Below are positions 48,311 to 62,934 of a DNA stretch of 64,000 nt, piece by piece. A model generated the notes under the pieces. It made no database searches. It worked only from the letters and a program-made list of their open reading frames with translations, and had not been told where the DNA came from. This DNA comes from Streptomyces sp. Je 1-332. Lineage in GTDB: Bacteria > Actinomycetota > Actinomycetes > Streptomycetales > Streptomycetaceae. The stretch covers positions 4,960,001 through 5,024,000 of the forward strand of contig NZ_CP160402.1 in NCBI RefSeq assembly GCF_040730185.1. The letters run 5' to 3'. Position 1 is the first letter of the stretch, and each line of letters opens with the position of its first letter. Position numbers and translations under genes: made by a program.

Positions 48311-48322
48311 CTACGCGCGTTA
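48311..48322. promoter_or_regulatory. nucleoside-regulon operator 1 (first BmpA gene)
   Basis: CTACGCGCGTTA, matching the half-palindrome CTACGC-GCGTAG except at the last two bases, lies 59 bp upstream of the BmpA start and overlaps a -10-like TACTGT (48321-48326). The downstream GAAATCAG stretch is shared with the second BmpA promoter. Confidence 0.75.
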
Positions 48323-48380
48323 CTGTGCGCCGAAATCAGGCCCGTCCAGGGTGCTTTGGGGAACGTAAGGGGTGCGTCCT

Positions 48381-49487
48381 ATGCGTCTTCGTCGAGGATC
48401 TCGTGGAACACGGGGATCGAGGCTCTCCCAGGTGGCCGTCGTGGTGGCGTCCCTCGCCCTCGCGGCCTCAGCGTGCGGCAAGACAAGCAACGAGGCGTCG
48501 GAGGACGAGGGCAAGGACGACAAGTCCGGTGGTTCCTCGGAGTACAGCGCCAAGGGCATCGGCCTCGCCTACGACATCGGCGGCCAGGGCGACCAGTCCT
48601 TCAACGACGCCGCGTACGCCGGGTACGCGAAGGCCCGCAAGGACTTCAAGATCGGCGGCGTGGACATGGAGCCGGGCGACGGCGAGTCCAGTGCCGACAA
48701 GGTGCAGCGGATCGAGCAGCTGGCCAAGCAGGGCTACAACCCGGTCATCGGCGTCGGCTACATCTACGCCCCCGCCATCAAGGAAGCCGCGGCGAAGTTC
48801 CCGAAGACCACCTTCGGGATCATCGACGACAACACCGTCAAGGCGGACAACGTCTCCGACCTGGTCTTCCACGAGGAGCAGGGGTCGTATCTGGCGGGCG
48901 TCGCGGCGGCCAAGGCCACCAAGGCCGATCACGTCGGGTTCATCGGCGGCGTGGACATCCCGCTCATCCACAAGTTCGAGGCCGGCTTCGTGCAGGGCGT
49001 CAAGGACACGAACCCCAAGGTCAAGGTCGAGAAGCAGTATCTGACCGAGAAGCCCGAGGACGGCGGCTTCAGCAGCCCCGACAAGGGCCAGAACGCGGCC
49101 AGTGGGCAGATCGAGTCGGGCGCCGACGTGCTCTACCACGCGGCGGGGCTCTCCGGTCAGGGCGTGATCCAGGAGGCCGGCTCGCAGAAGGTGTGGGCGA
49201 TCGGCGTCGACTCCGACCAGTACAAGCAAAAGGCCCTCGCCAAGCACAAGGACTACATCCTCGGCTCGGCCCTCAAGGACGTCGGCGGCGCCGTCTACGA
49301 CCTGACGAAGTCGGTGGTCGACGGCAAGCCGATCACGGGCGAGCAGCGCTACGACCTCAAGTCGGGCCGCGTCGGGTTCGCCGACACGAACCCGAAGTAC
49401 ACGGCGATGAAGGACGTGGTCGCCGCCGTGGAGAAGGCCGAGAAGGACATCATCGACGGCAAGGTCACGGTCAGCACCACGCCGTAA
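48381..49487 (+). CDS. BmpA/BMP-family nucleoside-binding lipoprotein
   Basis: 368 residues from ATG 48381 (AAGGGG 8 bp upstream); a GTG at 48372 is the alternative. Lipobox AASAC, then the BMP/PnrA domain (GIGLAYDIGGQGDQSFNDAA, GSYLAGVAAAKATKADHVGF, VDSDQYKQKALAKHKDYIL). It should capture nucleosides outside the membrane for the ABC importer downstream. The second BmpA gene at 49697 is very similar, so this is a tandem duplication with separate promoters and a terminator between. Confidence 0.92.
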   Translation: MRLRRGSRGTRGSRLSQVAVVVASLALAASACGKTSNEASEDEGKDDKSGGSSEYSAKGIGLAYDIGGQGDQSFNDAAYAGYAKARKDFKIGGVDMEPGDGESSADKVQRIEQLAKQGYNPVIGVGYIYAPAIKEAAAKFPKTTFGIIDDNTVKADNVSDLVFHEEQGSYLAGVAAAKATKADHVGFIGGVDIPLIHKFEAGFVQGVKDTNPKVKVEKQYLTEKPEDGGFSSPDKGQNAASGQIESGADVLYHAAGLSGQGVIQEAGSQKVWAIGVDSDQYKQKALAKHKDYILGSALKDVGGAVYDLTKSVVDGKPITGEQRYDLKSGRVGFADTNPKYTAMKDVVAAVEKAEKDIIDGKVTVSTTP

Positions 49488-49502
49488 CCCGGTCCGTGGC
49501 AG

Positions 49503-49535
49503 GTGGGGCGCCCCGTGCGGTGAGGGGCGCCCCAC
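49503..49535 (+). terminator. terminator between the BmpA genes
   Basis: GTGGGGCGCCCC (49503-49514) pairs perfectly with GGGGCGCCCCAC (49524-49535), 9-base loop, 15 bp past the first BmpA stop. Confidence 0.8.
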
Positions 49536-49609
49536 AGTGCGTACATGCTCCCGCAACCTCGCGGCCACAGCTCGATAACGGACGGGACAGAAGGGTTCTT
49601 ATGTCAGGT

Positions 49610-49621
49610 CTACGCGCGTTA
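49610..49621. promoter_or_regulatory. nucleoside-regulon operator 2 (second BmpA gene)
   Basis: CTACGCGCGTTA, identical to operator 1, overlaps a -10-like TACGCT (49620-49625), 75 bp before the start of the second BmpA gene. Confidence 0.75.
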
Positions 49622-49696
49622 CGCTGCGGCGAAATCAGCGCCAGGTGAGGCGCTCGTACGTGCTTGTGCTTGCTTGTACATAAGGAGTTCCTCTCT

Positions 49697-50752
49697 ATGC
49701 GCCGGGTTTCCCGAATTGCCGCAGCGGGCGCAGCCGCCGCCGCACTCGCCGTCTCCGCCACCGCTTGCGGCGGCACGTCCAGCGACGCCGCAGGCTCCAA
49801 GAGCGACGGCAAGAGCAAGGGCGTCGCCATCGCGTACGACGTCGGCGGCCAGGGCGACCAGTCCTTCAACGACGCCGCGACGGCAGGCATGGACAAGGCC
49901 GCCAAGGACCTGAAGGTGGGCAAGAAGGCCGTGGAGCCGACGGACGGGGAGTCCGACGCCGACAAGAGCCAGCGCCTCACCGAGCTCGCCAAGCAGGGCT
50001 ACAACCCGGTCATCGGCATCGGCTACGCCTACGCCCCGGCCGTGAAGGAAGTCGCCGCGAAGTTCCCGAAGATCAGCTTCGGCATCGTCGACGACGCCAC
50101 CATCAAGGCGGACAACGTCTCGGACCTGGTCTTCAACGAGGAGCAGTCCTCGTACCTCGCGGGCGTCGCCGCGGCCAAGGCCACGAAGACGAAGAGCGTC
50201 GGCTTCATCGGCGGCGTGAACAACAACCTGATCCGCAAGTTCGAGGCGGGCTTCGTCCAGGGCGTCAAGGACACCGACAAGTCGGTCAAGGTCAAGCGCC
50301 AGATGCTCACCGAGAAGGCCGAGGACGGCGGCTTCTCCAGCCCCGACAAGGGCAAGGAGGCGGCGAGCGGCCAGATCGAGGGCGGCGCCGACGTGGTCTA
50401 CCACGCCGCGGGTCTCTCGGGTCAGGGCGTCATCGAGGCGGCCGCCGCCGAGAAGGTCTGGGCGATCGGTGTCGACTCCGACCAGTACAAGCAGAAGGCC
50501 CTGGACAAGTACAAGAAGTACATCCTGACCTCGGCGACCAAGGACGTGGCCGGGGCGGTGTACAACCTGACGAAGTCGGTCCAGGATGGCAACGCCAAGG
50601 GCGGCGTGGTCCGTGCGGACCTGAAGTCCGGCGGTGTCGCGCTCGCCGACTCGAACCCCGAGTTCAAGAAGATGAAGGACCTGCAGGCCGCCGTGAAGAA
50701 GGCCGAACAGGACATCGTCAGCGGCAAGACCAAGGTCAAGACCACGCTGTAA
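49697..50752 (+). CDS. BmpA/BMP-family nucleoside-binding lipoprotein
   Basis: 351 residues from ATG 49697 with TAAGGAG upstream. Lipobox SATAC, then the BMP domain (GVAIAYDVGGQGDQSFNDAA, SSYLAGVAAAKATKTKSVGF). Closely related to the first BmpA protein over the whole mature length. Conserved between them is VWAIGVDSDQYKQKAL. The two may bind different nucleosides; the better RBS and identical operator suggest parallel control. Confidence 0.92.
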   Translation: MRRVSRIAAAGAAAAALAVSATACGGTSSDAAGSKSDGKSKGVAIAYDVGGQGDQSFNDAATAGMDKAAKDLKVGKKAVEPTDGESDADKSQRLTELAKQGYNPVIGIGYAYAPAVKEVAAKFPKISFGIVDDATIKADNVSDLVFNEEQSSYLAGVAAAKATKTKSVGFIGGVNNNLIRKFEAGFVQGVKDTDKSVKVKRQMLTEKAEDGGFSSPDKGKEAASGQIEGGADVVYHAAGLSGQGVIEAAAAEKVWAIGVDSDQYKQKALDKYKKYILTSATKDVAGAVYNLTKSVQDGNAKGGVVRADLKSGGVALADSNPEFKKMKDLQAAVKKAEQDIVSGKTKVKTTL

Positions 50753-50779
50753 CCGGACTGCGCTGTCACAGCGAAGTCA

Positions 50780-50825
50780 GGGGCGCGGAACGGGGTGTGG
50801 GGGACGATGGTTTCCCCCGCGCCCC
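50780..50825 (+). terminator. terminator after the second BmpA gene
   Basis: GGGGCGCGG (50780-50788) pairs with CCGCGCCCC (50817-50825); an inner GGGGGA/TTCCCC stem adds to it. It overlaps the GTG 50795 and ATG 50807 that open the ABC frame, which argues against those starts. Confidence 0.7.
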
Positions 50826-50867
50826 GTTCGCGCGGACCACTGCCCAACTCCCGTCGAACCAGGGGCG

Positions 50868-50879
50868 CTACGCGCGTAG
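50868..50879. promoter_or_regulatory. nucleoside-regulon operator 3 (ABC operon)
   Basis: CTACGCGCGTAG, a perfect 12-bp palindrome, 38 bp before the ATC start of the ABC ATPase. It falls inside the longer open frame, another sign that the longer frame is not coding. Confidence 0.85.
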
Positions 50880-50917
50880 GTGGCCCCTTTCCTGAGGATT
50901 CCCGAGGAGAGTGCGCC

Positions 50918-52561
50918 ATCGACGCGTCCACCAGTCCCGACAAGGACAAGTCCACCGCCAAGGTCTCGACCGGCCCGGATGGCACCGCCGTTGAACTCAC
51001 CGGCATCACCAAGCGTTTCCCGGGCGTCGTGGCCAACCACGACATCCGCCTGACCGTCCGCAAGGGCACCGTGCACGCCCTCGTCGGCGAGAACGGCGCG
51101 GGCAAGTCGACCCTGATGAAGATCCTCTACGGCATGCAGAAGCCGGACGAGGGCACCATCTCCGTCGACGGCACCCAGGTGACCTTCGCCGGCCCCGCCG
51201 ACGCCATCGCGCGTGGCATCGGCATGGTCCACCAGCACTTCATGCTCGCCGACCAGCTCACGGTCCTGGAGAACATCGTTCTCGGCAGCGAGAAGCTGCA
51301 CGGCATCGGCGGCGCCGCCCGCCGCAAGATCGCCGAGATATCCGACCGTTACGGCCTCGGGGTGCGCCCCGACGCCATGGTCGAGGACCTGGGCGTCGCC
51401 GACCGGCAGCGCGTGGAGATCCTCAAGGTCCTCTACCGAGGCGCCACCACGCTGATCCTGGACGAGCCCACGGCCGTGCTCGTGCCGCAGGAGGTCGACG
51501 CGCTCTTCGACAACCTGCGCGAGCTGAAGTCCGAGGGCCTGTCCGTCATCTTCATCTCCCACAAGCTGGGCGAAGTCCTGTCCGTCGCCGACGACATCAC
51601 CGTCATCCGGCGCGGCACCACGGTGGGCACGGCGATCCCGTCCGAGACGACGCCCCGCCAGCTCGCCGAGCTGATGGTCGGCAGCGAGCTGCCCACCCCG
51701 GAGACGGCCGAGTCGACGGTCACCGACCGCGCGATGATCGAGGTCGAGGAGCTCAAGCTGCTCGCCGACGGCGAGTCGGGCCGCGCCCTCCTCGACGACA
51801 TCTCCTTCACCATCCACGAGGGCGAGGTCCTCGGCCTCGCGGGCGTGGAGGGCAACGGCCAGACCGAGCTGATCGACGCGCTCATCGGCCTCAAGCACGC
51901 CGACTCCGGCGTCATCCGCATGGCCGGCAAGGACATCACCGACCTCGCCACCCGCCACCGCCGCGAGCAGGGCGTCGGCTACATCCCCGAGGACCGCCAC
52001 CGCCACGGCCTCCTCCTGGAGTCACCGCTCTGGGAGAACCGCATCCTCGGTCACGTCACCGAGAAGCCCAACTCCCGTGGCAAGGGCGGCTTCTGGCTCG
52101 ACACCAAGGGTGCGCAGGCCGACACCCGGCGCATCGTCGAGCAGTACGACGTCCGCACCCCCGGCATCGACGTCACGGCGGCCTCCCTCTCCGGCGGCAA
52201 CCAGCAGAAGCTGATCGTCGGCCGCGAGATGAGCCACAAGCCCCGCTTCCTGATCGCCGCCCACCCCACCCGTGGTGTGGACGTCGGCGCGCAGGCCCAG
52301 ATCTGGGACCAGATCCGCGAGGCACGGCGCGAAGGGCTCGCGGTGCTCCTCATCTCGGCGGACCTGGACGAGCTGATCGGCCTCTCCGACACCCTCCGCG
52401 TGATCTACCGCGGACGGCTCGTCGCCGACGCCGACCCGGCCACCGTCACGCCGGAGGAGCTCGGCTCGGCCATGACCGGCGCGGCGTCCGGCCACCTCGA
52501 ACACGTAGAAGAAGACCCCGAAGAGGGCTCTGGCGACGCTTCGGAGGACGAGGCCCGATGA
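50918..52561 (+). CDS. nucleoside ABC importer ATPase, apparent ATC start
   Basis: 547 residues. Two ABC domains as in sugar/nucleoside importers of the RbsA/YufO type: first Walker A GENGAGKSTLMKIL and Walker B TLILDEPTAVL; second has a degenerate Walker A (GVEGNGQTELIDAL) and signature SLSGGNQQKLIVGREM. In frame the only upstream starts are GTG 50795 and ATG 50807, both within a terminator stem. ATC 50918 follows GAGGAG with 8-bp spacing, and no ATG, GTG, TTG or CTG suits until inside the first ABC domain. Translation from ATC is inferred. The stop overlaps the permease ATG (ATGA). Confidence 0.85.
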   Translation: MDASTSPDKDKSTAKVSTGPDGTAVELTGITKRFPGVVANHDIRLTVRKGTVHALVGENGAGKSTLMKILYGMQKPDEGTISVDGTQVTFAGPADAIARGIGMVHQHFMLADQLTVLENIVLGSEKLHGIGGAARRKIAEISDRYGLGVRPDAMVEDLGVADRQRVEILKVLYRGATTLILDEPTAVLVPQEVDALFDNLRELKSEGLSVIFISHKLGEVLSVADDITVIRRGTTVGTAIPSETTPRQLAELMVGSELPTPETAESTVTDRAMIEVEELKLLADGESGRALLDDISFTIHEGEVLGLAGVEGNGQTELIDALIGLKHADSGVIRMAGKDITDLATRHRREQGVGYIPEDRHRHGLLLESPLWENRILGHVTEKPNSRGKGGFWLDTKGAQADTRRIVEQYDVRTPGIDVTAASLSGGNQQKLIVGREMSHKPRFLIAAHPTRGVDVGAQAQIWDQIREARREGLAVLLISADLDELIGLSDTLRVIYRGRLVADADPATVTPEELGSAMTGAASGHLEHVEEDPEEGSGDASEDEAR

Positions 52562-53700
52562 AGAAGTTCGACAAGGAGCGCGTGCTCCTCGCGGTGGCCG
52601 GACCGGTCATCGCGCTCGTCGTGGCCGTGGCGCTGACCTCGGTCGTGCTGCTCGCCTCGGGCAAGAACCCGATCGAGCCGTACACCCTGATGCTGGAGCA
52701 GATCAGCTACTCCGACGTCCAGGTCCTGACCATCAACCAGGCCGGGATGTACTACCTGGCGGCGCTCGCGGTGGCCATCGGCTTCCGCATGAACCTGTTC
52801 AACATCGGTGTGGACGGGCAGTACCGCCTCGCCGCGATGACCACCGCCGTGGTCGGCGCGCACATCGCGCTGCCGGCCCCGCTCCAGATCCCGCTCCTGA
52901 TGCTGGTCGCCATGCTCACCGGCGCCTTCTGGGCGGGCATCGCGGGCATCCTGAAGACCACCCGCGGGGTCAGCGAGGTCGTCGCGACGATCATGCTCAA
53001 CGCCATCGCGACGAGCGTCATCGGCTACATGACCCTCACCGACAACTTCGGTGTCCCGGTCGGCAACAACCAGACCACCGGCGAGATGCACAAGTCCGGC
53101 TGGTTCCCCGGCATCAGCATGGGCGAGTCCGGCGAGATCTACGGCTTCGTGATCATCGCCGCGCTCGCGGGCGTCCTGTACTGGGTCGTCCTCAACCGCA
53201 CCCGCTTCGGCTTCGACCTGCGCGCCACCGGCGCCTCCACGTCGGCCGCAGCGGCCTCCGGCGTGAACGCCAAGCGCATGGTGCTCAGCGCCATGCTGAT
53301 CTCCGGCGCGGTCGCGGGCCTCGCGGGCATGCCGATCCTGCTCGGCGACACCCACACCTACAGCCTCAGCTTCCCCGCAGGCCTCGGCTTCACCGGCATC
53401 GGCATCGCGCTGCTCGGCCGCAACAACCCGGTCGGCATCGCGTTCGCCTCGCTGCTCTGGGCCTTCCTCGACAAGGCGTCGCCCGCCCTCGACTACGCGA
53501 CCCCGGTCGCGTACGACAAGGAGATCGCGGTGATCATGCAGGGTCTCATCGTGATCGCGGTCGTCGTCTCCTACGAGGCCGTACGCCGCTGGGGCCTCAA
53601 GCGCCAGCAGCGCCGCGTCGGTGAGGAACTGGCCGCCGCCGCGCGCAAGAACGGCAAGAACGGCACCAACGACACCGTGAAGGAGGTGGCTGCCCGATGA
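52558..53700 (+). CDS. nucleoside ABC importer permease 1
   Basis: 380 residues, ATG overlapping the ATPase stop by four bases. About eight to ten membrane helices; the signature FRMNLFNIGVDGQYRLAAMT and ATGASTSAAAASGVNAKRMV are typical of the BPD_transp_2 (YufP-like) family. Overlaps the next permease (ATGA). A basic cytoplasmic tail ends the protein. Confidence 0.92.
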   Translation: MKKFDKERVLLAVAGPVIALVVAVALTSVVLLASGKNPIEPYTLMLEQISYSDVQVLTINQAGMYYLAALAVAIGFRMNLFNIGVDGQYRLAAMTTAVVGAHIALPAPLQIPLLMLVAMLTGAFWAGIAGILKTTRGVSEVVATIMLNAIATSVIGYMTLTDNFGVPVGNNQTTGEMHKSGWFPGISMGESGEIYGFVIIAALAGVLYWVVLNRTRFGFDLRATGASTSAAAASGVNAKRMVLSAMLISGAVAGLAGMPILLGDTHTYSLSFPAGLGFTGIGIALLGRNNPVGIAFASLLWAFLDKASPALDYATPVAYDKEIAVIMQGLIVIAVVVSYEAVRRWGLKRQQRRVGEELAAAARKNGKNGTNDTVKEVAAR

Positions 53701-54959
53701 GCTCGGCAACCGTAGCCAAGCCCCCGGCCAAGCAGCCCGCGCCGGGCCGCCGCCGCATATCGCTCCCCGTCCTCCTTCTCGTGATCGCGGGCGTCCTCGT
53801 CCTGACGTCCGTGGTCCGGCTGATCACCGACGCGAACGGCATCACCTCCACCGGCCAGATGTCGACCGCGCTGCGGCTCGCCGTGCCGATCGGCCTCGCG
53901 GGCCTCGGCGGTCTGTGGGCCGAGCGCGCGGGCGTGGTCAACATCGGCCTCGAGGGCATGCTGATCCTCGGCACCTGGTTCGGCGCGTTCGCCGGTTACC
54001 AGTGGGGCCCGTGGGTCGGCATCCTGTTCGGCATCCTCGGCGGAGCGCTCGGCGGTCTGCTGCACGCGATCGTCACGGTCACCTTCAACGTCAACCACAT
54101 CGTCTCCGGTGTGGCCCTCAACATCCTCGCCCTGGGCGTCACGCGCTATCTCTCCACCTTCGCCTTCGAGGGCAAGGAGGGCGGCACGTCGAAGCAGTCG
54201 CCGCCGGTGGACTCGCTCGGCGAGTTCTCCGTGCCGGGCCTCTCGAACTGGCTGCAGGACCTGAACGAGAAGCACTGGTTCCTCGTCTCGGACATCGCGG
54301 GCCTGCTCGGCGGCCTGTTCACGAACCTGTCGCCGCTCACCGTCATCGCCATCGCGATGGTGCCGCTGAGCTGGTGGGTCCTGTGGCGCACGTCGTTCGG
54401 TCTGCGCCTGCGCTCCTGCGGCGAGAACCCGGTGGCCGCCGAGTCCCTCGGCGTGAACGTCTACAAGTACAAGTACCTCGCAGTGATCATCTCGGGCGGC
54501 CTCGCAGGCCTGGGCGGCGCGTTCCTGTCGCTCGTCGCCTCGAACATCTACCTGGAGGGCCAGACCGGCGGCCGCGGCTACATCGGCCTCGCCGCCATGA
54601 TCTTCGGCAACTGGATGCCCGGCGGCCTCGCGCTCGGTGCCGGCCTGTTCGGTTACACCGACAGCCTGAAGCTCCGGGGCGGCGGCACGAACGTCCACGC
54701 ACTGCTCCTGCTCCTGGCAATCCTGCTGGTCATCGGCGCGGCGTACCTCGTATGGCGCAAGCGTTACGTCCCCGCGGCGATCACCGCGGCCGTCTCGGCG
54801 CTGATGTTCGCGTGGTACGGCTTGACCGACGAGGTGCCCAACCAGGTCGTCACCGCGACGCCGTACGTCGTCACGCTGCTCGTGCTCTCGCTCTCCGCCC
54901 AGCGGCTGCGGATGCCGAAGGCGGACGGCCAGCCCTACCGAAAGGGACAAGGAACGTGA
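53697..54959 (+). CDS. nucleoside ABC importer permease 2
   Basis: 420 residues. The second BPD_transp_2 subunit (YufQ-like): WAERAGVVNIGLEGMLILGT, LRSCGENPVAAESLGVNVYK and GGLAGLGGAFLSL. Together with permease 1 and the ATPase it forms the importer fed by the BmpA lipoproteins. Four-base overlap with cdd. Confidence 0.92.
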   Translation: MSSATVAKPPAKQPAPGRRRISLPVLLLVIAGVLVLTSVVRLITDANGITSTGQMSTALRLAVPIGLAGLGGLWAERAGVVNIGLEGMLILGTWFGAFAGYQWGPWVGILFGILGGALGGLLHAIVTVTFNVNHIVSGVALNILALGVTRYLSTFAFEGKEGGTSKQSPPVDSLGEFSVPGLSNWLQDLNEKHWFLVSDIAGLLGGLFTNLSPLTVIAIAMVPLSWWVLWRTSFGLRLRSCGENPVAAESLGVNVYKYKYLAVIISGGLAGLGGAFLSLVASNIYLEGQTGGRGYIGLAAMIFGNWMPGGLALGAGLFGYTDSLKLRGGGTNVHALLLLLAILLVIGAAYLVWRKRYVPAAITAAVSALMFAWYGLTDEVPNQVVTATPYVVTLLVLSLSAQRLRMPKADGQPYRKGQGT

Positions 54960-55345
54960 CCGATACCGACTGGGACGCGCTGCGGGATGCTGCGCGGGAG
55001 GCCATGTCCCGTGCGTACGCGCCCTACTCAGGCTTCCCGGTCGGTGCCGCGGCCCTCGTGGACGACGGCCGCACGGTGGCGGGCTGCAACGTCGAGAACG
55101 CGTCGTACGGCCTCGGCCTGTGCGCCGAGTGCGGCCTTGTCTCGCAGCTCCAGCTCACCGGGGGCGGCCGTCTGACGCACTTCACCTGCGTCGACGCCAA
55201 GGGCGAGATCCTGATGCCGTGCGGCCGCTGCCGCCAGCTGCTCTACGAGTTCGGCGGCCCGACGCTCCTGTTGGAGACGGCCGCGGGCATCCGGACGCTG
55301 GAGGACATGCTGCCGGACGCGTTCGGCCCGCAGCACCTGAACTGA
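54956..55345 (+). CDS. cdd: cytidine deaminase
   Basis: 129 residues from GTG 54956 (AAGGA upstream), overlapping the permease stop (GTGA). Zinc-site motifs NVENASYGLGLCAECG (Cys ligand and catalytic Glu in CAE) and PCGRCRQ (two Cys ligands). It converts cytidine and deoxycytidine to uridine and deoxyuridine. Being the last gene of the importer operon, it deaminates the incoming nucleosides. Confidence 0.95.
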   Translation: MTDTDWDALRDAAREAMSRAYAPYSGFPVGAAALVDDGRTVAGCNVENASYGLGLCAECGLVSQLQLTGGGRLTHFTCVDAKGEILMPCGRCRQLLYEFGGPTLLLETAAGIRTLEDMLPDAFGPQHLN

Positions 55346-55349
55346 CGTA

Positions 55350-55386
55350 CGGCCCCTGCCGGTTGCGGTCCGGTCGGCAGGGGCCG
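55350..55386 (+). terminator. terminator of the nucleoside importer operon
   Basis: CGGCCCCTGCCG (55350-55361) pairs with CGGCAGGGGCCG (55375-55386), 12-bp perfect stem, followed by TCTTCATCTC. Confidence 0.8.
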
Positions 55387-55400
55387 TCTTCATCTCGTGG

Positions 55401-55416
55401 CTCTATGCGCGTAGAG
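55401..55416. promoter_or_regulatory. nucleoside-regulon operator 4 (deoA)
   Basis: CTCTATGCGCGTAGAG, a 16-bp palindrome with one mismatched pair, overlaps a -10-like TAGAGT (55412-55417). The deoA start is 63 bp downstream. Confidence 0.8.
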
Positions 55417-55479
55417 TTTCGCGATCACTGTGTTGGACCCGTTGTAGATCATCGTTGTAGGCGCAAGAGGGGTTATGCC

Positions 55480-56757
55480 ATGGACGTCATCTCCGTCATC
55501 CGTACGAAGCGGGACCGCGGCGAGCTGAGCGGCGAGCAGATCGACTGGGTCATCGACGCGTACACGCGCGGCGCGGTGGCCGACGAGCAGATGTCGGCCC
55601 TGGCCATGGCGATCCTGCTGAACGGCATGAACCGCGGCGAGATCGCCCGCTGGACCGCCGCGATGATCGCGAGCGGCGAGCGCATGGACTTCTCGTCCCT
55701 GTCCCGCCCCACCGCCGACAAGCACTCCACGGGGGGCGTCGGCGACAAGATCACGCTGCCGCTCGCCCCGCTGGTCGCGGCGTGCGGCGCGGCGGTCCCG
55801 CAGCTCTCGGGCCGGGGCCTCGGCCACACCGGCGGCACCCTGGACAAGCTGGAGTCCATCCCGGGCTGGAAGGCGCTGCTCTCGAACGAGGAGATGCTCT
55901 CGGTCCTTGACGGCGTGGGCTCGGTGATCTGCGCGGCGGGCGACGGCCTGGCCCCGGCGGACAAGAAGCTGTACGCGCTGCGGGACGTGACGGGCACGGT
56001 GGAGGCGATCCCCCTGATCGCCTCCTCGATCATGTCGAAGAAGATCGCCGAGGGCACGGGTTCGCTGGTCCTGGACGTGAAGGTCGGCACGGGCGCGTTC
56101 ATGAAGACGCTGGAGGACGCGAGGGAACTGGCGTCCACGATGGTGGGCCTCGGCACGGACCACGGCGTACGCACGGTGGCGCTGCTCACGGACATGTCCA
56201 CGCCCCTTGGCCTGACGGCGGGCAACGCCCTTGAGGTCCGCGAGTCGGTGGAGGTCCTCGCGGGCGGCGGCCCGGCGGACGTGGTGGAGCTGACCCTCGC
56301 GCTGGCGCGCGAAATGCTGGACGCGGCGGGCCTGAAGGACGTGGACCCGGCGAAGGCGCTGGCGGACGGCTCGGCGATGGACGTATGGCGCCGGATGATC
56401 TCCGCGCAGGGCGGCGACCCGGACGCGGCCCTCCCGGTGGCCCGGGAGACGCATGTCGTGACGGCGCCGACGTCGGGCGTCCTGACCCGCCTGGACGCGT
56501 ACGACGTGGGCGTCGCCGCGTGGCGCCTGGGCGCGGGCCGCGCGCGCAAGGAGGACGTGGTCCAGGCGGGCGCGGGCGTCGAGCTGCACGCGAAGCCGGG
56601 CGCTCAGGTCCGCGCGGGGGAGCCGTTGATGACCCTGCACACGGATACTCCGGAGCGCTTCGACTACGCCTTGCAGGCGGTGGCCGGTTCCTTCGACATC
56701 GCCCCCGAGGGCACGGGCTTCGCGGCGACGCAGATCGTCCTGGACCGCATCGCCTGA
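55480..56757 (+). CDS. deoA: thymidine (pyrimidine-nucleoside) phosphorylase
   Basis: 425 residues from ATG 55480 with AGAGGGG upstream. MDVISVIRTKRDRGELSGEQ is the typical start; the phosphate/nucleoside site is ADKHSTGGVGDKITLPL and the signature SGRGLGHTGGTLDKLESI follows. It splits thymidine or uridine to base and (deoxy)ribose 1-phosphate. It works with cdd and the importer; own promoter with the shared operator. Confidence 0.95.
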   Translation: MDVISVIRTKRDRGELSGEQIDWVIDAYTRGAVADEQMSALAMAILLNGMNRGEIARWTAAMIASGERMDFSSLSRPTADKHSTGGVGDKITLPLAPLVAACGAAVPQLSGRGLGHTGGTLDKLESIPGWKALLSNEEMLSVLDGVGSVICAAGDGLAPADKKLYALRDVTGTVEAIPLIASSIMSKKIAEGTGSLVLDVKVGTGAFMKTLEDARELASTMVGLGTDHGVRTVALLTDMSTPLGLTAGNALEVRESVEVLAGGGPADVVELTLALAREMLDAAGLKDVDPAKALADGSAMDVWRRMISAQGGDPDAALPVARETHVVTAPTSGVLTRLDAYDVGVAAWRLGAGRARKEDVVQAGAGVELHAKPGAQVRAGEPLMTLHTDTPERFDYALQAVAGSFDIAPEGTGFAATQIVLDRIA

Positions 56758-56764
56758 GCCGGAC

Positions 56765-56960
56765 CTGGGGCTCCGCCCCAGACCCCGCTCCTCAAACGCC
56801 GGAGGGGCTGTTTCCCGCCCACCCACCCGATTACCCCGGAGCTGGCCATTTCCAGCCCGTCCGGCGTTTGAGGACGAACTCGGCGAAGCCGGTGATGACG
56901 GCACCCAAGGCCCCCGCGCCAGAGCGGGTTTTCGGGAAGGGGCGGGGTTGGGGAAGTGCC
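56765..56960. repeat. Streptomyces intergenic repeats after deoA
   Basis: CTCAAACGCCGGAGGGGCTG (56791-56810) is largely the inverse of CAGCCCGTCCGGCGTTTGAG (56853-56872). CTGGGGCTCCGCCCCAG lies ahead of it, and TTTTCGGGAAGGGGCGGGG near 56935 completes the composite. The same set recurs at 60777-60860. It fills the gap before the STAS gene and may act as terminator. Confidence 0.75.
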
Positions 56961-57019
56961 CGCCGCAGGCGAAACGGACCTACCGATGAGTTCCGAGCGC
57001 CCGCACGGTCTCCCCCAAC

Positions 57020-57379
57020 ATGGACGACACACACCGGCCGGAGCTGACGCTGACCGGCACCCTCGACCGAGAGGCCACGCACCGCCTCTGCGAGGAGGCC
57101 CGCGCCACGCTGCGAACGAGCGGCGCGGAAGTCCTCGTATGCGACGTCGCAGACGTAGGCCCACCCGTCCTCTCCGCGATAGACGCCCTGGCCCGCCTGC
57201 AACTCACCGCCCGCCGCGCAGGCGGCCGGATCCGCGTCAGGAACCCGGCCCCGGCCCTGCGCGAGCTACTGCACCTCGTCGGGCTCCCCATTGAGATCGA
57301 GATGGACCGGCAGGCCGAACAGCGGGAACCACCTGGGCGTGTCCAGGAAGCAGTGGAAGCCCGCGATCCGCCCCTCTGA
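57020..57379 (+). CDS. STAS-domain protein (anti-sigma factor antagonist-like)
   Basis: 119 residues (MDDTHRPELTLTGTLDREAT). STAS pattern: VLVCDVADVGPPVLSAIDAL, then RRAGGRIRVRNPAPALRELL and HLVGLPIEI. The residue usually phosphorylated (Ser/Thr in DxSxxxFxDSSG-like loops) may be the Ser of PVLSAID. No convincing RBS. Its last 114 bp overlap the 3' end of the opposing sigma gene, so the two are convergent and antisense. Confidence 0.65.
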   Translation: MDDTHRPELTLTGTLDREATHRLCEEARATLRTSGAEVLVCDVADVGPPVLSAIDALARLQLTARRAGGRIRVRNPAPALRELLHLVGLPIEIEMDRQAEQREPPGRVQEAVEARDPPL

Positions 57380-58273
57380 GATCTCGATGACCTGCACCGC
57401 CCACGGCGCGAACCCGCCCTTCTCGGGGTCGGGCTTGTAGTGGGCGAACCCCGGTGTGCCGTTGACGTCGACCGGGAACAGCCGGCTGCCGGCGCAGGCG
57501 GCGCCCATCGTCGACATGAAGCCGGTGATGTCGGACGTGCCGCGCAGCCAGAGGTCGAACGGGGGCATCGTCATGATGGCGTCTTCGTGCAGCAGGGCCG
57601 TCAGGGCCGCCATGTCATAGCCCTCGAACGCGGCCACGTACCGCTCGAGGAGCTTTTGCTGCTCGTCGTCCAGGGGATCGGACACCGCGGTGTCGTCGGC
57701 GTGCCCCTCGGCCAGCGTCGCCCGCGCCCGCTGCAACGCGCTGTTGACGGAGGCCACCGACGTGTCGAGGAGCTCGGCGGCCTCGCTGGCCTTCCACGCG
57801 AGGACCTCGCGCAGGATCAGCACGGCCCGCTGTCTGGGCGGCAGTTGCTGCAGGGCGGCGACGAAAGCGAGCCGCACGGACTCCTTCGCCACGGCGGCCT
57901 CGGCGGGGTCGCTGACGGAGGGCAGCACGCGCGCGTCCGGCATCGGCTCCAGCCACACGTTGTCCGGGCGGGGAGTGAGCGCGGCCTGGGCCAGCGGCGC
58001 CGCCGCCGTCAGGTCCATGGGCCGGGCGCGGCGGCTGCCGGCGTTCAGCATGTCCAGGCAGACGTTCGTCGCGATGCGGTACAGCCAGGACCTCAGGCTG
58101 GAGCGGCCCTCGAACTTCTCATGGCTCCGCCACGCCCGCACCATCGTGTCCTGCACCGCGTCCTCGGCCTCGAAGGCCGAGCCCAGCATGCGATAGCAGT
58201 ACCCGGTCAGCTCGACCCGGTGCTTCTCCAGCGTGACGTCGAGCTCCGACGTCGTACCTGCGATGTCAGTCAT
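57266..58273 (-). CDS. ECF sigma factor with C-terminal SnoaL-like domain
   Basis: 335 residues. Region 2 (GYCYRMLGSAFEAEDAVQDT, LRSWLYRIATNVCLDMLN), region 4 (LPPRQRAVLILREVLAWKAS, LLDTSVASVNSALQRARATL), then a SnoaL-like domain (LERYVAAFEGYDMAALTALL, VIEISEGRIAGFHCFLDTPR) to the end. This is the SigG/SigJ-type ECF layout, where the extension replaces a separate anti-sigma factor. Confidence 0.88.
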   Translation of the reverse strand: MTDIAGTTSELDVTLEKHRVELTGYCYRMLGSAFEAEDAVQDTMVRAWRSHEKFEGRSSLRSWLYRIATNVCLDMLNAGSRRARPMDLTAAAPLAQAALTPRPDNVWLEPMPDARVLPSVSDPAEAAVAKESVRLAFVAALQQLPPRQRAVLILREVLAWKASEAAELLDTSVASVNSALQRARATLAEGHADDTAVSDPLDDEQQKLLERYVAAFEGYDMAALTALLHEDAIMTMPPFDLWLRGTSDITGFMSTMGAACAGSRLFPVDVNGTPGFAHYKPDPEKGGFAPWAVQVIEISEGRIAGFHCFLDTPRWFPLFGLPVHLDLNGEPDEVQ

Positions 58274-58385
58274 ACCAACCCACCCACCCCTGCGGCTGCC
58301 ACGAAAGTCCCAGCACTTTGGAAGCTACCGCAGCCCACTGACAACGGCCCCCGGAGTGAGAAAACCCGCAGGTGAGAAGGGTGGT

Positions 58386-59699
58386 TCAGTGCGCCGCCAC
58401 GAGCCCCCGCCGCTCCTGACGCGCCCGCCGCTCCTGCACCCGGGCCACGCGCGACCCCCAGACGGTGATGGAGACGACGCCGAGCACCGCGAGCAGCCCC
58501 AGGCCCACCGTCCCGGCCCAGCCCCCCGCGTGGAAGGCGACCGCGCCGAGCGTGCCGCCCGCGCTGGAGCCCAGGTAGTACGCGGACTGGTAGAGCGCCG
58601 AAGCCTGCGCGCGCCCCGCGGTGGCCGTACGGCTCACGGACGAGGAGGCGACCGCGTGCCCCGCGAAGAACCCCGCGGTGATCAGGACGAGCCCGAGCAG
58701 CACCATGACCAGGGAGTCGGAGAGGGAGAGCAGCAGACCCCCAGCCGTCGTGCTCACCGCCAGGTACAGCGCCCCGCGCCTGCCGAGCCGCGCCACCAGC
58801 TTGCCCGCTGCGGCCGACGAGACCGTACCGACGAGGTAGACCAGGAAGATCGAGCCGATGATGCCCTGCGGGAGCGAGAACGGCGCTTCGGTGAGGCGGT
58901 AGCCGATCACGGTGTAGACCGCGCCGAAGACCGTCATGAACAGCGCGCCGATCGCGTACAGGCGGCACAGCAGCGGGTTGGAGAGGTGCGAACGGATCGT
59001 CCTGCCGAGCGCCTTGGGGTTGAGCGAGCCCGCCGTGAAGTGACGCGGCGCGGGCAGCAGCGCGCGGAAGGCGAGTGCGCACAGGACGGCCACGACACCC
59101 ACCACGCCCACGGCCACGCGCCAGCCCCATGCCTGCGCGACCCAGCCGGTGATGATGCGTCCGCTCATGCCGCCGATGGAGTTGCCCGCCACGAACATGC
59201 CGATCGCGGCGACCAGCGCCTTGGGCCGCACCTCTTCCGCGAGGAAGGCCATCGCGGACGCCGGGAGCCCGGCGAGCGCCGCGCCCTGCACGGCGCGCAG
59301 CGCGATGAGCGCGCCGATGGACGGCGCGAAGGGGACGAGGAGACCCACGACGACCGCGACCGTCAGGGAGACCGTCATGAGCGTCCGGCGCCCGAAGCGC
59401 TCGCTGAGCGCGCTCAGGGGCAGGACGAAGAGGGCCAGTGCGCCCGTCGCCGCCGACACCGTCCAGCTCGCGGAGCTCGCGCTGACGCCGAAGTCGGCGG
59501 AGACGAGGGGGAGCAGTGCCTGCGTGGAGTACAGGAGGGCGAAGGTCGCGACGCCGGCGAGGAAGAGGGCGAAGCTCATCCGGCGGTAGCCGGGCCCGCG
59601 GGGCGTGAGCCGGGAGTCGGCTTCGGGAGAGGCATCGGTGGACGACGGGGGAAGGGCGGCCGCGTGGGTGGCGGACGCCCCGCTACTGGCAGGAGGCAT
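58386..59699 (-). CDS. MFS transporter
   Basis: 437 residues with 12 membrane helices after a Ser/Ala-rich N-terminus of about 40 residues. LSERFGRRTLMTVSLTVAVV is the MFS motif A region; the second half starts near LCRLYAIGALFMTVFGAVYT. The YnfM/AraJ-like exporters of this type often pair with a divergent LysR gene, as here. Substrate unknown. Confidence 0.9.
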   Translation of the reverse strand: MPPASSGASATHAAALPPSSTDASPEADSRLTPRGPGYRRMSFALFLAGVATFALLYSTQALLPLVSADFGVSASSASWTVSAATGALALFVLPLSALSERFGRRTLMTVSLTVAVVVGLLVPFAPSIGALIALRAVQGAALAGLPASAMAFLAEEVRPKALVAAIGMFVAGNSIGGMSGRIITGWVAQAWGWRVAVGVVGVVAVLCALAFRALLPAPRHFTAGSLNPKALGRTIRSHLSNPLLCRLYAIGALFMTVFGAVYTVIGYRLTEAPFSLPQGIIGSIFLVYLVGTVSSAAAGKLVARLGRRGALYLAVSTTAGGLLLSLSDSLVMVLLGLVLITAGFFAGHAVASSSVSRTATAGRAQASALYQSAYYLGSSAGGTLGAVAFHAGGWAGTVGLGLLAVLGVVSITVWGSRVARVQERRARQERRGLVAAH

Positions 59700-59761
59700 G
59701 CGTCGAACGTAAGCACCCAGGACTCATCCGTCCAATGCATGAACTGGTCATAATCGTTCCC

Positions 59762-60760
59762 ATGGAGCATGAGCGCAGTTCAGGGCGGCGTCTGTCGCAG
59801 AGTAGTAACGTAGGAGACATCGGCGCGACAGTGTCCGCGCCGGCCGAGCTGACCCCGGAGTCCTGGTCGGCGCTGCTCTCGCCGCGGCTCGCGTACTTCG
59901 CGGGGGTCGCGCGCACGGAGCATGTGACGCGGGCCGCGCAGGAGATGCAGGTGCCGCAGTCGACGCTGTCGCGCGCGTTGGTACGCCTCGAACAGGACCT
60001 GGGTGTCGACCTGTTCGCGCGGCACGGCAGGACGGTGTCCCTGACCCCGGCGGGCCGCACCTTCCTCGCCTCGGTGGAACGGGCGCTCGGTGAGGTGGAA
60101 CGGGCCGCGGAGTCCGTACGGGCGGACGCGGACCCGGCGTCGGGCAAGGTGGCCTTCGGGTTTTTGCACACGATGGGCTCGGAGACCGTGCCCGGTCTGA
60201 TCCGCGCCTTCCGCGCGGACCATCCGAGGGTCCGCTTCAGCCTCGTACAGAACTACGGGGAGGCGATGATCGAGCGGCTTCGGGCGGGGGAGCTGGACCT
60301 GTGTCTGACGTCGCCCGTGCCGGACGCGCCCGATCTCGTCGCCCGCCGCCTGGACGAACAGCGCCTGCGCCTGGTCGTGCCGGACGACCACCGTCTCGCC
60401 TCCCGCAAACGGGTCCGCCTCGCGGAGGCGGCGGACGAGGCCTTCGTGACCCTCGAACCCGGCTACGGTCTGCGGCGCATCACGGACGACCTCTGCCAGG
60501 AGGCCGGCTTCAAGCCGCGGATCGCGTTCGAGGGTGAGGAGGCGGAGACGCTGCGGGGCCTGGTCGCGGCGGGGCTCGGGGTGGCCCTCTTGCCGCCACC
60601 GGCCGTGCCGCGCCCGGGAGTCGTGGAACTGACGGTGACGGGCCAGCGGGCGGTACGGGAGATCGGCGTGGCCTGGCTGGACGGGCACCCGGACACTCCG
60701 CCGGTGGCGGCGTTCAAGAGGTTTCTGTTGGGGCGGCGGGGGCGGTTGCTGCCGGAGTAG
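59762..60760 (+). CDS. LysR-family regulator
   Basis: 332 residues from ATG 59762. Helix-turn-helix about residues 45-75 (TRAAQEMQVPQSTLSRALVR, LEQDLGVDLFARHGRTVSLT), then a LysR substrate domain (GFLHTMGSETVPGLIRAF). It probably controls the divergent MFS gene from the 62-bp gap, which holds ATGCATGAACTGGTCAT. A start at 59735 adds nine residues. Confidence 0.88.
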   Translation: MEHERSSGRRLSQSSNVGDIGATVSAPAELTPESWSALLSPRLAYFAGVARTEHVTRAAQEMQVPQSTLSRALVRLEQDLGVDLFARHGRTVSLTPAGRTFLASVERALGEVERAAESVRADADPASGKVAFGFLHTMGSETVPGLIRAFRADHPRVRFSLVQNYGEAMIERLRAGELDLCLTSPVPDAPDLVARRLDEQRLRLVVPDDHRLASRKRVRLAEAADEAFVTLEPGYGLRRITDDLCQEAGFKPRIAFEGEEAETLRGLVAAGLGVALLPPPAVPRPGVVELTVTGQRAVREIGVAWLDGHPDTPPVAAFKRFLLGRRGRLLPE

Positions 60761-60776
60761 TTCCTTTCCCCAGATC

Positions 60777-60860
60777 CAGCCCGTCCGGCGTTTGAGGACA
60801 TCTTGTACGGGGGTCCAGGGGGCGGAGCCCCATGGTTTCGGGAAGGGGCGGGATCGGGGA
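60777..60860. repeat. Streptomyces intergenic repeat after the LysR gene
   Basis: CAGCCCGTCCGGCGTTTGAG (60777-60796), GGGGGCGGAGCCCC near 60820 and TTTCGGGAAGGGGCGGGAT near 60837 repeat the order seen at 56765-56960, in the same orientation as its second half. Confidence 0.7.
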
Positions 60861-60885
60861 AAGCCCCGCAGGGCCCGCCCCCCCC

Positions 60886-61650
60886 TCAGTGCCGCATCGA
60901 CTCCCCGAACCCCGCCGCGAGCGGCATCCGCAACCCCAACGGCGGCGGAGCCGCCAACGCGTCCTCCAGCGGCCGCGCGTACGCATGGCCGAACAGCGAT
61001 CCCAGGACGAAGTCCGAGGCCAGCGCCTCCACTTCGGACTGGTGCTGCTGCAACCGGTGTCTGTCGGAGTGGACTTCGAACCGGCACACCTCCCGGTTCG
61101 CCTTCTTCGCCCGCGCCGCGAGCCGGAACGAGAGCTCGGGGTCGGTCCGCTCATCGTTCGTGCCGTGCACGATCAGGACCCGCCGCCCCGCGAGCTGTTT
61201 CACCGGTTCGGGGGACGCGGCCACGTCGTCCTCCGGCAGCCAAGGGGCCAGCGCCAGGACGGAGTTGACCGCTTCGTGGCCACTGGCCCGCAGGGCGGCC
61301 CGGCCGCCCATGTCCCTGCCGACGAGGCAGATCGAGACGTCGCCGTAGAGCCGGACGATCTCGTCCGCCGCCCACTCCGCGTCCCGCGCGAGCTGCGCCT
61401 GCGCCCCGTTCCAGCCGCGGTAGCGGTAGTGCACGACGTGCGCGGCGAGCCCCTCCGCGCGGCCGTCCCGGGCCAGCCTGCGGCCGAGCGCGCGCATCGA
61501 GTTCGCGGCGAAGGGGGCCGGCTTGCGGGCGGAGGTCTCGTGGCCGCCGGGGAGCAGCAGCACCGCGCCGCTGACCGCCGATGGGCGGGCGCCGATCACG
61601 CGCCCGAGCCTGGCCGCGCGCGCGGAATCGGGCGTCGCTTGCTGTGCCAT
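60886..61650 (-). CDS. alpha/beta hydrolase (dienelactone-hydrolase-like) with Asp at the nucleophile position
   Basis: 254 residues. LLLPGGHETSARKPAPFA is the oxyanion loop and VLIVHGTNDERTDPEL, HSDRHRLQQH supply the acid and His. The nucleophile elbow reads CLVGRDMGGRAAL, with Asp in place of the usual Ser in G-x-S-x-G. That would fit haloalkane dehalogenase or epoxide-hydrolase-like chemistry, or loss of esterase activity. Divergent from add. Confidence 0.75.
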   Translation of the reverse strand: MAQQATPDSARAARLGRVIGARPSAVSGAVLLLPGGHETSARKPAPFAANSMRALGRRLARDGRAEGLAAHVVHYRYRGWNGAQAQLARDAEWAADEIVRLYGDVSICLVGRDMGGRAALRASGHEAVNSVLALAPWLPEDDVAASPEPVKQLAGRRVLIVHGTNDERTDPELSFRLAARAKKANREVCRFEVHSDRHRLQQHQSEVEALASDFVLGSLFGHAYARPLEDALAAPPPLGLRMPLAAGFGESMRH

Positions 61651-61736
61651 GACAGAACAGTGTCAGAAGCGATGGTGTACGCCACCCTTCCGCAGGGTCA
61701 CTGTTACGTATCGACCCGTGAGATCCCCCCGGCGAT

Positions 61737-61748
61737 CTACGCGCGTAG
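61737..61748. promoter_or_regulatory. nucleoside-regulon operator 5 (add)
   Basis: CTACGCGCGTAG, a perfect 12-bp palindrome, lies 16 bp before the adenosine deaminase ATG; the -10-like TAGAGT follows at 61753-61758. Confidence 0.85.
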
Positions 61749-61764
61749 GCGCTAGAGTGCCGAG

Positions 61765-62934
61765 ATGACGAGCCAGACCACCAAAGCCGGTCAGACGGAC
61801 CGCGAAACGCCCAGCGCCGACCAGATCCGCCGCGCCCCGAAGGTGCTCCTGCACGACCACCTCGACGGCGGCCTGCGCCCCGGCACGATCGTCGACCTCG
61901 CCCGCGAGTCGGGTTACGAGGGTCTGCCCGAGACCGACCCCGACAAGCTGGGGATCTGGTTCAGGGAGGCCGCCGACTCCGGTTCGCTGCCGCGCTATCT
62001 GGAGACCTTCGCCCACACCTGCGCGGTGATGCAGACGAAGGACGCCCTCAAGCGCGTGGCCGCCGAGTGCGCCGAGGACCTCGCCGAGGACGGCGTCGTC
62101 TACGCCGAGATCCGGTACGCCCCCGAGCAGCACCTGGAGCAGGGCCTCACCCTCGAAGAGGTCGTCGAGGCCGTCAACGAAGGCTTCCGGGAGGGCGAGC
62201 GGCGCGCGAAGGCCAACGGCCACCGCATCCGGGTGGGCGCGCTGCTGACCGCCATGCGGCACGCGGCCCGCGCCCTGGAGATCGCCGAACTCGCCAACCG
62301 CTACCGCGATCTGGGCGTCGTCGGCTTCGACATCGCGGGCGCGGAGGCGGGCTTCCCGCCCACCCGGCACCTCGACGCGTTCGAGTACCTCAAGCGCGAG
62401 AACAACCACTTCACCATCCACGCGGGCGAGGCCTTCGGTCTGCCGTCCATCTGGCAGGCCCTGCAGTGGTGCGGCGCCGACCGCCTCGGCCACGGCGTGC
62501 GGATCATCGACGACATCCAGGTCGCCGACGACGGCACCGTGAAGCTCGGCCGCCTCGCCAGCTATGTGCGCGACAAGCGCATCCCCCTGGAGATGTGCCC
62601 CAGCTCCAACCTCCAGACGGGCGCGGCGAGCTCGTACGCCGAGCACCCCATCGGCCTGCTGCGCAAGCTGCACTTCCGCGCCACGGTGAACACCGACAAC
62701 CGCCTGATGTCGGGCACCAGCATGAGCCGCGAATTCGAGCACCTGGTCGAGACTTTCGGTTACACGCTCGACGACATGCAGTGGTTCACAGTCAATGCGA
62801 TGAAATCAGCGTTCATTCCTTTCGATGAACGCCTTGCCATGATCAGTGACGTGATCAAGCCCGGATATGCCGAGCTGAAGTCCGAATGGCTGTTCCGTCA
62901 GACCGCCTCCACCAGGGCTTCTGTCGACGTGTAA
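61765..62934 (+). CDS. add: adenosine deaminase
   Basis: 389 residues. Metal and catalytic motifs in order: [33 protein letters not shown] (catalytic Glu), [15 protein letters not shown] and NTDNRLMSG. It converts (deoxy)adenosine to (deoxy)inosine in purine salvage. It is 5 kb from deoA but carries the same operator, so it looks like the fifth unit of the regulon. The close spacing (-10 to ATG) suggests a very short or no leader. Confidence 0.95.

Follow-up and report, generated by a model that had tools for sequence, protein, structure and literature searches.

Organization of the nucleoside gene cluster and its palindromic sites

The window analyzed here is a stretch of 64,000 nucleotides (nt) of the forward strand of Streptomyces sp. 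Je 1-332 (NZ_CP160402.1, 4,960,001–5,024,000). It carries a cluster of genes for the import and breakdown of nucleosides, whose promoters contain copies of a 12-base-pair (bp) even palindrome, CTACGCGCGTAG, with the halves CTACGC and GCGTAG. Positions of sites refer to the window unless they are stated to be genome-wide. The cluster includes an operon encoding an ATP-binding cassette (ABC) transporter and is organized as follows.

48311–48322, + strand: putative operator of bmpA1, CTACGCGCGTTA (pattern scan; the same variant in 14/14 Streptomyces bmpA promoters)
48372–49487, + strand: bmpA1, nucleoside-binding lipoprotein (PF02608; start GTG 48372 or ATG 48381)
49610–49621, + strand: putative operator of bmpA2, CTACGCGCGTTA (pattern scan, Streptomyces footprint)
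49697–50752, + strand: bmpA2, nucleoside-binding lipoprotein (PF02608; ATG 49697 behind an AAGGAG-like site)
50868–50879, + strand: putative operator of the ABC-permease-permease-cdd operon, perfect (genome scan)
50918–52561, + strand: ABC ATPase (PF00005; probable start ATC 50918; longest open reading frame from 50795)
52558–53700, + strand: permease 1 (PF02653)
53697–54959, + strand: permease 2 (named by place and relatives, without a Pfam scan)
54956–55345, + strand: cdd, cytidine deaminase (PF00383)
55401–55416, + strand: putative operator of deoA (core CTATGCGCGTAG, 55403–55414)
55480–56757, + strand: deoA, pyrimidine nucleoside phosphorylase (PF00591, PF07831)
61737–61748, + strand: putative operator of add, perfect (-28 to -17 from ATG)
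61753–61758, + strand: -10-like TAGAGT of add (6 nt before ATG)
61765–62934, + strand: add, adenosine deaminase (PF00962, E 3.4e-105)

A pattern scan of the window recovered, each in its place, the five sites that a first-pass annotation of this DNA had described. The copies in front of the ABC operon and add are perfect, that of deoA differs from the palindrome by one mismatch and lies within a 16-mer, and those of bmpA1 and bmpA2 have two mismatches. The sites are located 16–75 bp before gene starts, as had been claimed: 16 bp for add, 38 bp for the ABC operon if its start is 50918, 49 or 58 bp for bmpA1, depending on the start codon used, 65 bp for deoA, and 75 bp for bmpA2. Their contact with -10-like sequences is also evident, because the last two bases of the bmpA1 site open the hexamer TACTGT (48321–48326), the bmpA2 site overlaps TACGCT (49620–49625), and the TAGAGT of add follows close behind its site. 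The M20, sigma, MFS and LysR genes between them have no match with up to two mismatches in the window scan. No regulator candidate is present inside the window, in agreement with the first-pass annotation; a DeoR-family gene lies 17.8 kilobases (kb) past the window end. A one-mismatch site, CTACGCGCGTGG, occurs elsewhere in the window at 30989–31000.

Distribution of the palindrome within and between genomes

The host genome of 8,274,399 bases contains exactly four perfect copies of CTACGCGCGTAG, at genome-wide positions 5010868, 5021737, 5033753 and 5039471, against an expectation of about 0.5, calculated with the base composition of 92 kb of the host genome. The reversed pattern, used as a control, has no perfect match genome-wide. 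All four copies are inside 28,615 bp, and the chance of such a grouping for four random places is about 2e-7. The two copies outside the window are positioned 10 and 15 kb past its end. The one at 5033753 precedes deoC on the minus strand, with two aldehyde dehydrogenase genes behind deoC (one of the two scanned), and the one at 5039471 precedes the purine nucleoside phosphorylase gene pnp, which is followed by a phosphomannomutase-like gene. Every perfect site in the genome stands before a nucleoside gene. The cluster thus contains seven sites: the four perfect ones, that of deoA with one mismatch, and those of the two bmpA genes with two mismatches. A relaxed word, CTAYGCGYGTWR, has nine forward and five reverse matches at 10 places genome-wide, with two and two for the control. 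Seven of the places are in the cluster, two are at 5'-nucleotidase genes, and one (5873898) is inside a coding sequence, so that nine of the ten are at nucleoside or nucleotide genes. The genome holds 19 one-mismatch sites, of which one is that of deoA; among the 12 that were read outside the cluster, three belong to an NCS2 purine permease gene, a second nucleotidase gene and purS. Near-perfect sites are not scattered over random promoters, which was the check suggested by the first-pass annotation.

The perfect site is present in all 199 genomes of the genus, with two to six copies per genome and zero to three for the reversed control. It is also present in 149 of 150 Streptomycetaceae genomes (39 of them from the same genus), covering 16 of 17 genera. 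The exception in the family, G492, retains imperfect sites, with one mismatch at deoC and two at pnp. Among 296 genomes sampled across the class, the perfect site was found in 31/31 same-genus genomes and in 10/265 others. The 10 outside genomes have one copy each, except for one genome with three (G269). None of the known genes is adjacent to the site in the seven outside-family loci that were read; the outside genomes G286, G329 and G408, which also have a perfect site, are not represented among these loci. The copies in G269 were treated as chance: two of them are in one 45-kb stretch, at least 12 kb from the only match there, which is add-like at 34%, and no gene start was found near the third.

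The genes add, deoC and pnp and the ABC operon account for 83 of the 110 perfect-site entries read. Removing seven entries of other families and two duplicates from the 27 others leaves 18 distinct extra sites in the family. Six of these are at a second adenosine deaminase gene (one scanned), two at a nucleotidase-like gene, two at purN-like genes (one scanned), and one at purS.

Conservation of the sites in front of individual genes

Sixteen Streptomyces regions were compared, including that of the host; the others were drawn from the genomes of the genus with listed site positions, mostly those whose sites share one contig. The perfect site is present at add, deoC and pnp in 16/16 regions each, and the bmpA promoters that could be compared all carry CTACGCGCGTTA. 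The ABC operon has a perfect site in 10 of 15 Streptomyces, a one-mismatch site in three and none in two, and deoA has a site with up to two mismatches in 9/16. No site with up to two mismatches was found in Streptomyces in front of the first permease gene (0/15) or deoR (0/15), nor in front of the second permease gene, the two aldh genes, pmm and lpd (0/16 each).

The comparison was extended to 11 regions from 11 other genera of Streptomycetaceae. Sites are located at deoC with at most one mismatch in 11/11 regions, at pnp with up to two mismatches in 10/10, and at bmpA-like genes with up to two mismatches in 6/6. The site of add is perfect in 8/9; the ninth gene is a 65% match and is perhaps a different gene. 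Because sites are kept there both within and beyond Streptomyces, add, deoC, pnp and bmpA form the heart of the set. The footprinting of orthologues that the first-pass annotation had called for thus finds the sites conserved before orthologous genes.

The palindrome also emerges from an unsupervised search for the near-palindrome best common to the promoters of one genome, evaluated against 20 shuffles. CTACGCGCGTAG is the top word in 16/16 Streptomyces; none of the 20 shuffles is as good in 15 of these genomes, and one of 20 is in G093. The gene cluster itself was found in most of 20 outside-family genomes fetched. When an ancestral or replaced motif was sought in 18 genomes of other families, at least one of the 20 shuffles matched the top word in 17 of them, and in G363 a GC-rich word, CGCCGGCCGCCG, beats all 20 shuffles. 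An initial run, limited to six shuffles, had given four genomes in which the shuffles were surpassed by one.

Nucleotidases, a purine permease and purS extend the set

The first-pass annotation described the set as one of nucleoside uptake and breakdown. That description stands for the genes in the window and is too narrow for the whole, since deoC, pnp, secreted 5'-nucleotidases, the NCS2 purine permease and purS are also included. The sites of the last three were followed in relatives: the 30 best-scoring of 81 genomes for purS, the 30 best-scoring of 61 for the permease, and 80 of 565 relatives for the first nucleotidase. The purS site has exactly one mismatch in 30/30 loci and is perfect in none of these; a perfect site is present at purS in genome G306. 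One-mismatch sites precede the permease gene in 27/30 loci, and the first nucleotidase gene has one mismatch in 64/80, two in 15 and five in one. Control windows from the same loci have two mismatches in 9/480 cases for purS, 2/656 for the permease and 3/1730 for the nucleotidase, and never fewer.

In the host, the purS site is 54 bp before the gene, which is followed by purQ- and purL-like genes, and the NCS2 site is about 60 bp before its gene. The site at genome-wide position 1986636 is 48 bp before the first 5'-nucleotidase gene, the product of which looks secreted. It is the second copy of a tandem double site (C1:1986623–1986647; L230 1488–1512), and a tandem pair is also seen in one named relative, from Streptomyces alfalfae (L319). 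The site at 3817299 is at the 5' end of the second 5'-nucleotidase gene, the exact start of which is not fixed. A divergently oriented gene flanks the purS site on the side away from purS and encodes the nucleoid protein Lsr2 (PF11774; L255 1756–2093), and the same site could therefore affect the expression of Lsr2. A MarR gene is situated near the purine permease gene and a GntR gene near the second nucleotidase gene.

Position of the sites in promoters and their shape

In the host, the site of add extends from -28 to -17 relative to the ATG (centre -22.5), with TAGAGT six bases before the ATG. The deoC site extends from -25 to -14 relative to a GTG (centre -19.5) and is directly followed by ATATGCT; an ATG six bases further is also a possible start. 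The pnp site extends from -37 to -26 relative to a GTG (centre -31.5), with TACTCT seven bases before the GTG. These arrangements are kept: TAGAGT or TACAGT is found 6 nt before the ATG in all 15 add promoters that reach the ATG (16 aligned), the deoC pattern in 16/16 aligned promoters, and the pnp pattern in 15/16, the exception being G340. The transcripts of add, deoC and pnp are apparently leaderless, which would put the site between about -35 and -10. Since the centres of the sites vary inside the promoter, a repressor fits better than an activator. The distance to the -10-like hexamer differs among add, pnp and deoC, and the site is therefore not a -35 element.

The shape of the site was tallied from 257 sites with up to two mismatches; worse ones were left out. 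Bases C1, C6 and G7 are invariant in 257/257. The altered half is the upstream one in 36 sites and the gene-proximal one in 147. The form of the site is characteristic of the promoter. The perfect form is usual at add (24/24), deoC (19/27) and pnp (22/26), and particular variants are usual at purS (CTACCCGCGTAG, 19/30), the permease (CTACGCGCGGAG, 25/27), bmpA (CTACGCGCGTTA, 18/20) and the nucleotidase (CTACGCGCGTTG, 50/79).

A proposed single repressor for the path from external nucleotides to purines

The palindrome CTACGCGCGTAG and its promoter-specific variants probably serve as operators for one sequence-specific repressor that is conserved throughout Streptomycetaceae and regulates the path from external nucleotides to purines. 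What such a regulon leads one to expect is found: a common site in the promoters of one pathway, located inside core promoters and kept by descent. The genome scan and the footprinting thereby both support the proposal of the first-pass annotation that nucleoside uptake and breakdown share a single operator set; that one repressor stands behind the set is what we infer from them. The controlled genes would be those of the secreted 5'-nucleotidases, BmpA-ABC nucleoside import, cytidine and adenosine deaminases, nucleoside phosphorylases, deoxyribose-phosphate aldolase with its aldehyde dehydrogenases, the purine permease, and purS with the purQ- and purL-like genes. A dimer of the repressor would block RNA polymerase by occupying the region around -35 to -10, and how well it binds would depend on a nucleoside, a base or a nucleotide acting as the signal. 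The operators would be tuned to different strengths, with the tightest binding at the perfect sites of add, deoC and pnp and looser binding at the imperfect ones of purS, the permease, bmpA and the nucleotidases.

Several observations weigh against this reading. Loose matches are not enriched: the window contains 36 with up to three mismatches, where 54 are expected, and the genome contains 23 with up to one mismatch and 260 with up to two, compared to 30 and 691 for the reversed control. The signal is carried only by near-perfect forms. Nine of the 12 one-mismatch sites read outside the cluster of the host genome are without an evident nucleoside link, and six more, among them that at 30989 of the window, are unread. 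The same is true of seven of the 18 extra perfect sites in the family (L031, L037, L115, L120, L141, L195 and L207), which may be chance or further members of the set. The site is missing at deoA in 7/16 and at the ABC operon in 2/15 Streptomyces, and in the other genera it is present at each of these in only 1/7. The invariance of C1, C6 and G7 is partly a matter of choice, because sites with more than two mismatches were excluded, and the counts are not independent, because the genomes are related. Two further points concern the regulator, for which the LacI family is the leading candidate: no site has been seen before any regulator gene, although 72% of the LacI-family regulators treated in PMC4052901 autoregulate, and the core of 12 bp, with outer bases that vary by promoter, is shorter than the 16–22 bp given for operators in excerpts of the same paper.

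Candidate regulators and alternative explanations

A LacI-type repressor leads among the candidates because the site is an even palindrome with an invariant central CpG (C6-G7, 257/257). Even palindromes with a central CG are characteristic of LacI-family sites, according to excerpts of PMC4052901. The assignment of the regulator to the LacI family is tentative, and we regard it as possible rather than probable on the basis of the operator sequence. A LacI gene adjoins glnR, 7 kb from the second nucleotidase gene; it is a weak and unlikely candidate, suggested by its place only. The DeoR-family protein encoded at C1:5041836–5042813, 2.4 kb past the pnp site, might instead bind the palindrome and act on deoxynucleoside genes like other bacterial DeoR proteins. 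It combines a DeoR helix-turn-helix (HTH) with a DeoR sensor domain, its gene is near pnp in Streptomyces and in the other family regions that reach that far, and it is present in 18/18 genomes of 15 family genera. One perfect site each is present in four outside genomes whose DeoR matches are more distant (G282, G286, G329 and G376). However, the genomes with the six closest outside-family orthologues (67–71% identity and nearly the same HTH) are without a perfect site, and none of 20 DeoR neighbourhoods outside the family includes deoA, add, deoC or pnp, and eight of them include a sugar-type ABC ATPase gene. That case is weakened by most outside-family cluster stretches ending before the expected place of DeoR. 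The deoR promoter, moreover, lacks the site in all 15 Streptomyces and keeps a different dyad. DeoR thus fits poorly and, without being rejected outright, comes last among the named candidates as an improbable binder. The dyad of the deoR promoter resembles GAACAACTTCTGTTATTC (C1:5041770–5041787; L145 1435–1452), is about 66 bases before the start codon, and recurs with up to three mismatches in 23/30 Streptomyces deoR loci; it is possibly the DeoR regulator's own operator.

The remaining explanations dispense with a single dedicated repressor. If the sites were bound by an activator or by a global regulator of the nucleoid type, it would be understandable that no regulator gene is tied to them and that the purS site shares its intergenic region with the Lsr2 gene. 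ArgR has been reported to bind the pyk1-SCO2015 region (excerpts of PMC3293853). This is presumably the region of the first nucleotidase. An activator would be unusual at the positions that the sites occupy at add, deoC and pnp (about -37 to -14), and about four perfect copies per genome, nearly always in one pathway, are unlike a global regulator, so that we consider this explanation unlikely. Several regulators with similar sites, one for breakdown recognizing perfect sites and another for purS and the permease recognizing imperfect ones, would agree with the imperfect forms being fixed by promoter and with purS never being perfect in the 30 loci read, though it is so in G306. However, every form can be obtained from a single word by changing one or two letters, none of them in the central CG, and a division among regulators seems to us unlikely. 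The sites could finally be chance, or a promoter element without a regulator. The lack of enrichment of loose matches would suit chance; by contrast, the clustering and conservation of the sites and their differing spacing to the -10-like hexamer at add, pnp and deoC make either version very improbable.

Comparison with described regulatory systems

In Escherichia coli, nucleoside breakdown is under the separate regulators CytR and DeoR. They keep deo and cdd-type genes off until nucleosides arrive, which is a likeness to the present set; their operator sequences are different, and purine synthesis genes are not their main targets. The PurR box of E. coli also differs from the 12-bp site CTACGCGCGTAG. 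Unlike in E. coli, breakdown, import, external nucleotidases and purS are here under one site. PurR of Bacillus subtilis governs both de novo purine genes and the transport of purines and nucleosides and resembles the present system in this respect, but it uses a long two-box operator and senses phosphoribosyl pyrophosphate, and to our knowledge it controls neither deoC, add or pnp nor secreted nucleotidases. Repressors that act through palindromic operators have been described before. E. coli PurR, a member of the LacI family, also has an even palindromic operator with a central CG and controls purine synthesis (excerpts of PMC4052901). The same excerpts describe UriR, AdeR and HpxR as LacI-family nucleoside regulators, with UriR in corynebacteria; they are alike in their type of control but are local regulators, and no streptomycete member is named in those excerpts.

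A search of the open-access literature, with subscription journals and regulon databases outside its scope, found no description of this motif or regulon and none of a master regulator of Streptomyces purine and nucleoside metabolism. Text matches to the 12-mer in that literature concern DNA structure and GapR, judging by title, and those to its core together with Streptomyces are unrelated by title. What is new, as far as can be told, is that external nucleotidases, import, breakdown, the purine permease and purS are combined in one set, that the system is confined to one family, and that its sites are graded. It is conceivable, at somewhat less than an even chance, that the system is a master switch of the purine and nucleoside economy that is Streptomycetaceae's own, with its regulator outside the described regulons. 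Its graded operator code, in which imperfection is fixed by promoter and located mostly in the gene-proximal half, might determine which genes open earlier and which later as nucleoside levels rise. If this is true, one Streptomycetaceae switch does what PurR, CytR and DeoR do separately in E. coli. Purine nucleotides feed growth, the synthesis of guanosine tetra- and pentaphosphate, (p)ppGpp, sporulation, and nucleoside antibiotics. A 12-bp site with two to six perfect copies per genome is a direct bait for the regulator and its signal, and the promoter-specific variants provide a natural series for studying how operator strength sets the order of expression.

Start codon of the ABC ATPase

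The codon at the probable start of the ABC ATPase (50918–50920) is ATC in 15/15 Streptomyces regions, behind GGAG or GGGG and AGTGCGYC. In genome G103, an in-frame stop begins 12 bases ahead of the codon preceding the ATC, and there is no ATG, GTG or TTG between them. The host gene also has an in-frame GTG and ATG about 110–120 bases upstream, and its next usual start is 37 codons downstream. Judging from this conservation, the ABC ATPase appears to start at the ATC (AUC), which would be unusual.

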